Shown in pieces: positions 9,975-55,768 of a stretch of DNA of 60,605 bases. The notes below the pieces were generated by a model. The model saw only the letters and a list, made by a program, of their open reading frames with translations. It did not search any database and was not told the DNA's origin. Positions within the stretch are counted from its first letter, which is position 1, and each line of letters starts with the position of its first letter. A program made the translations under genes and the position numbers. The stretch is from the IMG/VR virus record IMGVR_UViG_3300036770_004227, positions 1 through 60,605 of that record; one strand, 5' to 3'. The stretch is from a virus.

Positions 9975-10867
9975 GTAATCCTCAATTTCCAATTTATATC
10001 GTCAGTAAAGGGCGTGCTGATAGTAGACTAACTAGTAAAGCACTTAATCTTATGAAAGTGCCACACTATATGGTGGTTGAACCACAAGAATATGACATCT
10101 ACTCTGAAGCATGCAAGGACACTACTGCCACTGTACTAACTCTTGACATGGACTATAAAAATCAGTATGATTGTTTTGACAATTTAGGCTTGACTAAGTC
10201 CACTGGCCCTGGGCCAGCAAGAAATTTTGCATGGGATCATAGTATTGCCAGTGGCTATGACTGGCATTGGGTAATGGATGACAATATTGCAGAATTTTTG
10301 AGGCTAACTGATAACAAAAAAATTCGTTTCGGTGATGGTACATGTTTCAGAATTATGGAAGATTTTGTACTACGATACGAAAACATCGGAATGGCGGGAC
10401 CCCAGTATCGTGCCTTTGCACCACAGAATTCTAAAATACCACCGTTCGTCGCTAATACACGAATTTATAGTTGCAATTTAATTCGTAATGATACACCTTT
10501 CAGGTGGCGTGGCAGATATAACGAAGACACTGATCTTAGTTTGCGTATGCTCAAGGCTGGCTGGGCTACTGTTCAGTTCAATGCATTTTTACAGGATAAA
10601 CTACGTACACAAGTACTAGGAGGTGGCAACACTGCTGAATTTTATGCAAAAGAAGGCACCGCTGCCAAGAGTCAAATGCAAGTAGATATGCATCCAGATG
10701 TTAGTCGTTTAACATGGAAGTTTGGACGAATACATCACGAAGTAAATTATAATCCATTCAAAAACATTCCGTTATTGTTTAAGTCCGACTACGTTAGAGT
10801 AGAAGGCGTAAATGATTACGGATTATCTCTTAAATCTGGATGGAAGAGAGTCAAAAATAATATATGA
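9971..10867 (+). CDS. TET-associated-type glycosyltransferase (DNA base modification)
   Basis: The 298-residue protein matches the TAGT family described alongside phage TET/JBP hydroxylases and other DNA-modification systems. Visible features: an N-terminal strand and turn (IYIVSKGRADSRLTSKAL, residues 8-25), VVEPQEYDIY (35-44), the ARN segment at about 83-85, and VMDDN (101-105), which corresponds to the DXD-type metal and nucleotide-sugar site. A second acidic site YNEDTDLSLRML follows at about 180. It likely transfers a sugar to a modified base in phage DNA, shielding it from restriction. No base-hydroxylating or hydroxymethyl-forming partner is seen in this window. Confidence 0.75.
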   Translation: MSNPQFPIYIVSKGRADSRLTSKALNLMKVPHYMVVEPQEYDIYSEACKDTTATVLTLDMDYKNQYDCFDNLGLTKSTGPGPARNFAWDHSIASGYDWHWVMDDNIAEFLRLTDNKKIRFGDGTCFRIMEDFVLRYENIGMAGPQYRAFAPQNSKIPPFVANTRIYSCNLIRNDTPFRWRGRYNEDTDLSLRMLKAGWATVQFNAFLQDKLRTQVLGGGNTAEFYAKEGTAAKSQMQVDMHPDVSRLTWKFGRIHHEVNYNPFKNIPLLFKSDYVRVEGVNDYGLSLKSGWKRVKNNI

Positions 10868-53674: not shown

Positions 53675-53682
53675 CATAAATA
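53675..53682 (+). promoter_or_regulatory. Possible late promoter box CATAAATA
   Basis: CATAAATA lies four bases before the GTG start of the second GIY-YIG gene. It fits NATAAATA, but closeness to the start leaves little room for a leader. Confidence 0.3.
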
Positions 53683-53686
53683 CAAT

Positions 53687-54103
53687 GTGACGTGGCTTTT
53701 TGAAGACAAAATTATTGAGACACTACCAGACGATGTAGTTGGGTTTGTATATATAATAACCAACAAGTTGTCTGGACGAAAATATATAGGCAAAAAATTA
53801 TCTAAATTCAAGAAAATAAGACTAAAAACATCAAGGTTAAAAAACGGCACTAAAAAGAAATCAAAAATTAGATATGAAATCGATAGTGACTGGCAAATTT
53901 ATTATGGTTCAAACTCGGTATTATCAGAAGAAGTAAAAAATTTAGGCTCAGAAAATTTTAAAAGAGAAATATTAAGGTATTGTTATTCAAAAAATGAATT
54001 AAATTATTACGAAGCAAAGTATCAATTTGATTATGGTGTTTTGCTTAGTGGTGACTGGTACAACGAATGGATATCGGTCAAAGTACGTAAACTAAAGATT
54101 TAA
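53687..54103 (+). CDS. Small GIY-YIG superfamily nuclease
   Basis: The 138-residue protein has GFVYIITN (19-26) and RKYIGKK (31-37), the GIY and YIG strands, and a later Glu in LNYYEAKYQFDYG as possible metal ligand. It opens MTWLFEDKIIETLP, a pattern seen in a small GIY-YIG family of T4-like phages lacking extra DNA-binding modules. The start appears to be GTG at 53687; no ATG is available before the domain. It sits between gp46 and the structured non-coding region and may be linked with the RNA as a mobile unit. Confidence 0.75.
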   Translation: MTWLFEDKIIETLPDDVVGFVYIITNKLSGRKYIGKKLSKFKKIRLKTSRLKNGTKKKSKIRYEIDSDWQIYYGSNSVLSEEVKNLGSENFKREILRYCYSKNELNYYEAKYQFDYGVLLSGDWYNEWISVKVRKLKI

Positions 54104-54115
54104 TTCACATCAAGG

Positions 54116-54698
54116 TTATTATAGCGACGCACCGCAAACTGCGACATCTACAGGCAAAATCTCAAACAGTGTATGGCTAGCATCGGCCTAAATTCGGATG
54201 CTCTAAACCTGGACCTCGGGTCGCAGGGACGAAAACCTTGGCGCTGTACCAAGAACTCAATCACTATCCTTTACAGGACGAAGATCGCCAATCCCGCGGT
54301 TTGATTGTTTGAACAGGTTTTATGGGTAAAAAGACGTGATAGCGATATCACACGGTTATATCAAAGGACAGCATCATTGATATAGCCCGCCGTTGTAAGA
54401 AAGACTGGATGAGTAGGTACCGGATAACCGCCTGCGTTACATTTCCTGTGTGTCAAAACACAGATGTTGTTGTAGTCCTGATGCTGTGTGGTTGTCAACT
54501 CAGATGAAAACACCACTTCATAGTAGAAATACTATGATTTTTTTCGCCCTTCGTGGGCGAAAGAGAGGCAGTAATCTAGATGAATGGTATCTCTTCTGAT
54601 TGGTTAATAATTATTCTTTAAGAAAAGATCGTCTAGTTAATTGAAGGAGCGATAGCGACTGAAAATTAACGACGACGATATGGGTGCGCCGCACCCAT
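54116..54698 (+). ncRNA. Candidate large ornate non-coding RNA, about 580 nt
   Basis: No credible reading frame lies between the GIY-YIG stop and 54702, yet the region is about 44% GC by hand count, clearly above its neighbours. Perfect stems: GTGATA/TATCAC with GCGA loop (54336-54351); 11-bp GGTTATATCAA with TTGATATAGCC (54354-54387); CTGTGT/ACACAG (54446-54463); TCATAGTA/TACTATGA with GAAA loop (54518-54537); TTTCGCCC/GGGCGAAA (54542-54562); GTTAATT/AATTAAC (54636-54670); ATGGGTGC/GCACCCAT (54680-54698). Loop bases ACAGCATCA (54368-54376) pair with TGATGCTGT (54479-54487), a pseudoknot. The GNRA loops exist only on the plus strand, which sets orientation. Size and phage location recall GOLLD and ROOL RNAs; class unassigned. 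Confidence 0.7.
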
Positions 54699-54701
54699 CA
54701 A

Positions 54702-54920
54702 TTATATGAATAACAATCCAGATTTATTGGTCTTTTCAATATTCTCTTCAATTATCTTATTGATAATTTCTCTATCCTGATAACCTATTTCAAATGCTTG
54801 ATCTAGTGTTACTCCACCTCGCATATACCAAACCAATTTATATATGTATGATCTTAACGCCTTTGACTCTTTTTCGTATGAATTTATTAATTCAACTACT
54901 TCTTCATTTGTTAGAGTCAA
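54702..54920 (-). CDS. Small conserved protein next to gp26
   Basis: The 72-residue helical protein (LTNEEVVELINSYEKESKAL, then YMRGGVTLDQAFEIGYQDRE) belongs to a small family that recurs beside the gp26 gene in aquatic T4-like phages. It may assist hub assembly, as T4 gp51 does, but no direct match to gp51 is seen. It starts five bases after gp26 on the same strand. Confidence 0.6.
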   Translation of the reverse strand: MTLTNEEVVELINSYEKESKALRSYIYKLVWYMRGGVTLDQAFEIGYQDREIINKIIEENIEKTNKSGLLFI

Positions 54921-54925
54921 AAGCG

Positions 54926-55768
54926 TTAAACGAAAAAATTAGACATCTCAAATGTTAAGGGTGTTTCAAATTCCTTCTTACATGATTCACATGTTAAAGA
55001 AAGCAAATTTGCTTTATTTTCTTTTATTATGTTATTAATTTCTTCCTTAACGGCGTTCCATATTTTTCTATCGCAGTTTTTAAAAAAATCATTTATGAAA
55101 AGTTCGTTTTCCACTACTACATTATTATCTAATTTTATGTAAGAAATATTGCCAGATATTTCTCCTACTTTTAGTGTTAGTAGTTTATTAAATAGATCTT
55201 TGAACTTAGTAAATTTTTCTTCTTCTGGTAAATTATTTTGATTTAAAAGTTGTAATGTTCTTTGTTCCTCGAACATTATTATTGCCTTTTTATTAAACGA
55301 TTTATAATTTTCGGCTTTTAAACATATCTCAAGATTTTCAACATTAATTATTCTATGATAGTTTGGAATGTTATGATATCTTTCCATCAACATTTGTAAA
55401 TCAAGGGTCATTTCGTTTTTATGATTACAATGCGGACAAACACTTATAAAATCCATTTTATTACCGTATGTTGCCAAACGTATTGCCAATAATATTAGGT
55501 CAATATCACATATAGGTGTGTCCCATGCATCTTTGATATTAGGTATACAACTTTGTATTACTTCAACAGTGGACTGGCCATTTAATAATGCGTCTGGAGT
55601 TTTAAGCATCAACTCGTCTTTTGCGGTCATTGCGAAAACAGGATATTCTTCCGTTACAGTACGTTGCAAAGATCCCTCTGGCCACCATTGCCCATTACTT
55701 GGAAATTTTATGTATAGTTGAGGCTGACGATAGAATTTTGATAGTGGATTTTCTGTTTCTTTGTTCAT
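54926..55768 (-). CDS. 26: Baseplate hub assembly protein (T4 gp26)
   Basis: The 280-residue protein matches the T4 gp26 baseplate family: FPSNGQWWPEGSL near the N-terminus, MTAKDELMLKTPDALLNGQS (about 48-67) and CDIDLILLAIRLATYG. Two zinc-type knuckles, CPHCNHKNE (about 110) and CESCKKEFE near the C-terminus, are visible. T4 gp26 is shorter (208). It is needed for hub formation. The gene is divergent from the tape-measure candidate. Confidence 0.85.
   Translation of the reverse strand: MNKETENPLSKFYRQPQLYIKFPSNGQWWPEGSLQRTVTEEYPVFAMTAKDELMLKTPDALLNGQSTVEVIQSCIPNIKDAWDTPICDIDLILLAIRLATYGNKMDFISVCPHCNHKNEMTLDLQMLMERYHNIPNYHRIINVENLEICLKAENYKSFNKKAIIMFEEQRTLQLLNQNNLPEEEKFTKFKDLFNKLLTLKVGEISGNISYIKLDNNVVVENELFINDFFKNCDRKIWNAVKEEINNIIKENKANLLSLTCESCKKEFETPLTFEMSNFFV

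Follow-up and report, generated by a model that had tools for sequence, protein, structure and literature searches.

Our analysis strongly supports the presence of a large structured noncoding RNA on the plus strand of the viral record IMGVR_UViG_3300036770_004227 (positions 1-60,605, the whole stretch of 60,605 nt analysed, hereafter the window). The RNA is ~550 nt long and occupies ~54150-54700 (+), both ends being approximate, with a conserved AGGCAAA at its 5' start and a terminator-like hairpin at its 3' end. The first quarter corresponds to an orphan motif already on record, Polynucleobacter-1; most of the molecule appears to have gone undescribed.

The RNA lies in a gene-free segment (54104-54701) between a SegE-like ORF (53687-54103, +) and a small convergent ORF (54702-54920, -), the latter followed by a baseplate-hub gene (54926-55768, -; PHROG 150). 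The preliminary description had reported a gene-free stretch of raised GC content in a packed genome, and each of these points held: ORFs of at least 75 aa cover 94.7% of the window, the longest stretch without one is this segment (822 nt, the runner-up being 271 nt), and the GC content of the segment is 0.438 compared with 0.358 for the window, at the 98.8th percentile of equal windows. The limits given for it, 54116-54698, did not stand, the conserved sequence running from near 54150 and the 3' tail to near 54700. The folding energy of 54150-54700 was -169.5 kcal/mol compared with -143.1 ± 5.4 kcal/mol for 100 dinucleotide shuffles (z = -4.9), none of which reached the value of the native sequence. 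A conserved protein frame, weighed against an RNA in the preliminary description, was looked for in 93 loci and none was found; no locus had a frame open over 360 nt, and a protein-coding reading was rejected because the longest ORFs match those of shuffled sequence.

A search of Rfam gave one strong match, RF01718 (Polynucleobacter-1), at 54175-54310 (+, 136 nt), with 114.7 bits (gathering cut-off 37), an E-value of 4.6e-25 and full-length coverage of model positions 1-141. Polynucleobacter-1 is an orphan motif that entered the literature in 2010 as a candidate RNA of Burkholderiales and fresh water or estuary, marked 'y' as an RNA and 'y' in the cis-reg column by Weinberg et al. (PMC2864571), the only paper naming it in the literature searched. 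The 141-nt model does not bound the RNA, as significant covarying helices reach 54697, with additional pairs at 54166-54169, and the conserved structure extends ~390 nt past the model. Rfam has no entry for the remaining three quarters, and no earlier description of the longer RNA was found in the literature searched, most subscription papers and supplementary files lying outside it. The covariance-model scan suggested at the outset returned RF01718 as its one strong match: neither GOLLD nor ROOL matched at E ≤ 5, and the group I and group II intron, RNase P and tmRNA models did not match the window RNA. A divergent member of GOLLD or ROOL, as had been proposed, therefore finds no support from either model, and the other proposal, a new class, was too strong for an RNA whose first quarter is a full-length RF01718 match.

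A search pattern from the Rfam part retrieved 30 viral contigs, and one built on the conserved GGUAC.GG...ACCGCC core in mid-segment, outside the Rfam model, retrieved at least 120; the match in L112 was judged to be chance. We aligned 93 non-redundant homologues from uncultivated phages, in which conserved blocks begin near 54150 and continue as far as the terminal hairpin (54698). Some carrier contigs exceed 200 kb (L136, 269,730 nt; L085, 229,675 nt), so at least some of the carrier phages are large. The phage contigs appear to be of freshwater origin, judging from the listing of the family and not from sample records. Two RNA queries showed no DNA similarity to any of 50,697 phage records, and a pattern scan of genome contigs gave matches only in scattered, unrelated genomes, which were judged to be chance. 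Two natural deletions were observed, one in L087 that removes the C-terminal end of SegE together with the 5' portion of the RNA, and one in L033 that removes repeat 1 (see below), one pseudoknot strand and a hairpin. Among cultured phages, the jumbo phage PA5oct group has the closest gp46 (49.5% identity). The syntenic gp46-gp26 interval of PA5oct (L281:9590-10560; NC_071039 about 76240-77210) contains a ~900-nt gene-poor gap with strong hairpins, parts of which match three places in the genome. The tail of this gap is similar (stem-GAG...CGAA-stem, then GTGAAC..GTTCAC), and its homology to the RNA is putative; neither a twin 7-mer nor an Rfam match was found in the gap.

Relatives also occur in chromosomes. 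RF01718 was found in 4/399 Burkholderiales genomes, three of them above the cut-off, and the core pattern in 19/186 genomes of one genus, putatively Polynucleobacter. These loci keep the full RNA architecture and lack SegE, and a DUF6641 gene divergently adjoins the RNA in all 21 (re-fetched ones counted). Six loci with longer flanks mostly had tyrosine recombinase genes and an AAA ATPase nearby, and the L286 element is bounded by 46-bp repeats at tRNA-Phe; the Burkholderiales copies lie in integrative elements. DUF6641 is absent from the phage records, the viral loci and the window, which ruled it out as a general partner, and no viral contig was found to carry the core of the chromosomal type. 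Other DUF6641 loci (L327:2300-2720, L329:2380-2740 and L336, reverse complement, 2330-2730) carry between their genes another RNA of structured appearance, which has the same tail (GAGCG..AGCGA plus a terminal hairpin) and did not match Rfam; it may represent a second, related class.

Covariation was analysed in the 93 sequences by a G-test with average-product correction, using a custom R-scape-like script rather than the program R-scape; for the null, each column was simulated on a FastTree tree at its own rate, and the threshold was set at an expected 0.05 false pairs. With 100 simulations 83 column pairs were significant (100 pairs with 40 simulations), 38 of which were Watson-Crick (at least 85% canonical) compared with 0.8% of random variable-column pairs. 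The alignments were sequence-based and weak in the variable parts, and some of the non-canonical significant pairs may represent alignment or subclass effects. As a control, the SegE coding sequence of the same loci gave two significant pairs by the same procedure, neither of them canonical. In an independent test on nine non-redundant loci found via the SegE protein and unused before, 82% of the cells were canonical compared with 30-45% with slid partners, and 55 double compensatory changes were present at covarying pairs. Thus the covariation check foreseen in the preliminary description came out in favour of its large plus-strand structured RNA with a pseudoknot, which is strongly supported across the 93 loci.

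Table 1. Features of the RNA and of the gene directly upstream, in window coordinates
Feature	Position	Strand	Evidence or remark
SegE-like GIY-YIG protein gene	53687-54103	+	Directly upstream; PF19835, E 1.7e-28
Pseudoknot A	54166-54169 with 54244-54247, loop of hairpin 54237-54241/54249-54253	+	Significant pairs 54166-54247, 54168-54245, 54169-54244, 88-97% canonical; 5' strand outside Rfam model
H-type pseudoknot B	54175-54201: 54175-54177/54186-54188 crossing 54180-54184/54197-54201	+	Covariation; pairs 54176-54187 (98% canonical), 54182-54199 (100%), 54184-54197 (90%)
Hairpin	54208-54215/54219-54227	+	Significant pairs 54210-54225, 54214-54220
Helix	54258-54263/54302-54307, around hairpins 54264-54280 and 54283-54301	+	Covariation; four significant pairs, 94-99% canonical; enclosed hairpins: 54264-54280, 54286-54298
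GCGA (GNRA) tetraloop hairpin	54336-54351; loop 54342-54345, stem 54336-54341/54346-54351	+	54337-54350 94% canonical
Long hairpin	54354-54387; loop 54367-54374 is a strand of pseudoknot C	+	54357-54385, 54364-54377, 54366-54375
Pseudoknot C (of the preliminary description)	54368-54374 with 54481-54487	+	Six of seven conserved pairs above threshold, 97-100% canonical
Pseudoknot D	GUUGU 54392-54396 with hairpin loop AUAAC 54424-54428	+	Covariation; pairs 54394-54426 (100% canonical), 54395-54425 (100%), 54396-54424 (97%)
Helix	54407-54411/54474-54478, around hairpin 54413-54417/54431-54435 with conserved GGUAC.GG...ACCGCC core	+	Covariation
7-mer repeat 1, AGATGAA after ACTC	54502-54508	+	Identical to repeat 2 in 92/92 loci
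GAAA hairpin	54519-54536	+	Seen in window and L018
Inter-repeat hairpin, UUUCGCCC/GGGCGAAA	54542-54562	+	Sequence; conserved
7-mer repeat 2, AGATGAA after ATCT	54578-54584	+	Identical to repeat 1 in 92/92 loci
3' tail hairpin, conserved GAGCG..AGCGA internal motif	54628-54679	+	Pairs 54649-54656, 54650-54655
Terminal hairpin, terminator-like	54680-54698	+	54686-54696 92% canonical

The RNA holds at least four pseudoknots (A-D; Table 1), pseudoknot C being the one already proposed and now confirmed. Its two strands, ACAGCATCA (54368-54376) and TGATGCTGT (54479-54487), are exact complements as stated before; the conserved, covarying length in the 93 loci is 7 bp rather than 9 bp, and base 54375 usually has its partner inside the hairpin instead of in the pseudoknot. 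In the chromosomal homologues the same contact reads CCACTTA/TAAGTGG or GCACTTCGG/CCGAAGTGC. The many hairpins claimed for the segment are present. As for the two GNRA loops, the GCGA loop is conserved and covarying. The GAAA loop was seen in the window and its near relative L018; the segment holding it is shorter in most loci, with a repeat spacing of 47-65 instead of 76. The 3' tail belongs to the RNA because its GAGCG..AGCGA motif is concentrated in RNA tails, with 87 copies on this strand compared with two elsewhere in 1.2 Mb. The window copy of the terminal hairpin is without a clear U run.

Two 7-nt repeats, ACTC-N7 and ATCT-N7, lie on either side of the inter-repeat hairpin and gave significant pairs of identity, not of complementarity (A/A and G/G at 54502/54578 and 54506/54582; A/A and U/U at 54508/54584). 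In a search in which words were restricted to the consensus class and identity was not imposed, all 92 phage loci had identical 7-mers within the molecule, with nine different words between them, compared with a mean of 18.8 and a maximum of 32 after label shuffling; L316 and L317, read by eye, have GCATGAT twice each. The four flanking bases stay different (ACTC vs ATCT or GTCT), and copying of a longer tract is therefore no explanation for the identity. Among the chromosomal homologues, 17/20 loci have identical 7-mers with six words of their own, and the other three are unequal (AACAAAA/TCCAAAA twice, GGCGAAA/AGCGAAA once). Such differing 7-mers were seen in L289 (about 10200-10300), L340, L346 and L345, possibly decayed copies. 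The idea of an att site was rejected, since the 46-bp direct repeats of the L286 element lack the 7-mer. Taken together, the pattern suggests that the twin 7-mers may be two copies of one putative recognition element. Complements of the 7-mers were not enriched within 3 kb, nor were third copies nearby, so the partner is probably elsewhere, and the simplest reading is that both copies would meet the same partner in trans.

A SegE-type GIY-YIG gene is present upstream of the RNA in 88/93 loci, and the order gp47-gp46-(variable)-SegE-RNA-(variable)-gp26 is kept in many phages with variable cargo. When loci were found via SegE alone, 28/37 had the RNA (one cut by the contig end, two divergent) and the nine more distant ones did not. 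Homologues of the SegE-like protein are tagged 'NAD synthetase' in many phage records (PHROG 447), which looks like a propagated misannotation. Genes 3' of the RNA vary in identity and strand while the RNA stays. In five loci of another phage lineage (L065, L126, L132, L275 and L276) a near-consensus sigma70 promoter (TTGACA/TAGACA-17-TATAAT) lies just upstream of the RNA, and a search in three of these five loci found no SegE upstream. L126, L132 and L276 carry tRNA genes and a permuted tmRNA on the strand of the RNA, whereas the window has no tRNA genes; the permuted tmRNA (RF04321, 75-93 bits) lies among the tRNA genes at L126:10841-11140 (-), L132:11818-12088 (+) and L276:5968-6267 (-). 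The own promoter and the tRNA/tmRNA company argue for what may be an independent gene of the stable-RNA type. No sigma70 promoter was evident just 5' of the RNA in the SegE lineages, and since most loci are without a strong promoter between SegE and the RNA, the RNA may there be cut from a longer transcript. A T4-late-promoter-like box, CATAAATA, lies just upstream of the window SegE gene (53675-53682); similar boxes follow the RNA tail in 49/93 other loci. Late-promoter control of segE was rejected, because ATAAATA precedes the gene in only 3/84 loci.

The conserved structure, its strand and extent, its independence from neighbouring genes and the concerted variation of the 7-mers are directly supported by these results. 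The explanation we favour, which we regard as probable by a modest degree, is that the phage makes a trans-acting scaffold RNA of ~550 nt whose twin 7-nt recognition elements bind one partner twice or as a dimer. A free-standing RNA would be transcribed and be stable during infection; at least four pseudoknots would fold it into a compact scaffold displaying the same 7-nt element on each side of a hairpin; both copies would bind the same partner, protein or other RNA, and the whole assembly would be the functional unit. Action in trans is suggested because downstream genes change identity and strand while the RNA stays, and because five loci have their own promoter and the chromosomal relatives lack SegE. 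Several observations count against the scaffold reading: no single protein accompanies the RNA everywhere (its neighbour is SegE in phages and DUF6641 in chromosomes), most loci are without a strong promoter between SegE and the RNA, three chromosomal loci have unequal 7-mers, and L033 carries its deletion. A more ambitious version is doubtful as a whole: a new type of RNA machine, common to freshwater phages and Burkholderiales integrative elements, whose two identical 7-nt segments coevolve and serve as guides or docking sites for a partner that differs from lineage to lineage. On this view the chromosomal copies, always beside DUF6641, could represent this machine in the hands of a satellite or rival element.

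A serious rival, possible although less than probable, is that the RNA alone forms a multimer like those of GOLLD and ROOL, a cage or ring in which some of the 'pseudoknots' would join different chains and the twin 7-mers would lie in a quaternary interface. The size, complexity and phage-borne nature of the RNA fit this, as do the tRNA and tmRNA genes alongside it in one lineage, which are typical of GOLLD and ROOL, several of whose covarying contacts proved to be intermolecular (PMC12286853). However, there is no sequence or model match to either, and identity between two 7-mers is no base-pairing signature. Rather unlikely is a base-pairing regulatory RNA whose 7-mers would be twin seeds for one host or phage mRNA target differing by lineage: the 7-mers do not fall within the covarying helices, and in phage and chromosomal forms alike they change together, but their complements are not enriched within 3 kb and so elaborate a scaffold would be unusual for a seed RNA. 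We consider it quite unlikely that the SegE-type enzyme and the RNA form one nuclease-associated mobile unit, analogous to HEARO/omegaRNA or an intron, with SegE guided by the RNA. The adjacency in 88/93 loci and the 28/37 SegE-found loci with RNA favour it, but gp47-gp46-X-SegE-RNA-Y-gp26 is inherited as a block, so the linkage may reflect synteny; moreover, other genes can separate SegE and the RNA, no intron model matched, and the obligate linkage expected of HEARO or a nuclease-guide RNA was not found, the RNA existing without SegE in the other phage lineage and in chromosomes and nine SegE loci existing without the RNA. Most unlikely of all is that the RNA regulates a neighbouring gene in cis or forms part of its 3' UTR. 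The cis-reg mark of 2010 (PMC2864571) and the position closely 3' of segE speak for this, but the genes downstream are not constant and in many loci, the window included, run convergently, five loci have their own promoter, the tail closes with a terminal hairpin, and the RNA is far larger than known cis elements.

A motif left orphan in 2010 is thus the first quarter of a large ornate RNA present in over a hundred phage contigs, which places it with OLE, GOLLD and ROOL among the few giant RNAs of bacteria and phages with open functions. Function can be approached directly via the twin 7-mers, since double-swap experiments are simple to design, and the chromosomal form beside DUF6641 in Burkholderiales may lead to bacteria that can be cultured.

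HEARO and omegaRNA are structured RNAs beside a nuclease gene, an arrangement resembling that of the RNA and SegE; here, however, the enzyme is GIY-YIG instead of HNH, the RNA persists without the nuclease, and no model matched. GOLLD and ROOL are phage-borne and lie near tRNA islands (PMC12286853). The present RNA is similar to GOLLD, which forms an RNA nanocage, in being phage-borne, large, rich in pseudoknots and, in one lineage, near tRNA genes, but it does not match the model, is ~550 nt compared with ~800 nt, and differs in sequence and layout. With ROOL it shares a similar size, a phage-borne nature, pseudoknots and the lack of a known protein partner; again there is no model match, and the RNA appears to lie mostly outside tRNA islands. 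Polynucleobacter-1 is the closest: the 141-nt model matches at full length, the freshwater and Burkholderiales distribution appears to be the same, and chromosomal members found with RF01718 show the same larger architecture. The RNA described here is, however, ~4-fold longer and adds four pseudoknots, two of which (A and B) fall within or next to the part covered by Rfam but are missing from the structure line of the model, together with the twin 7-mers and the 3' tail, and most of the members found here are phage-borne.
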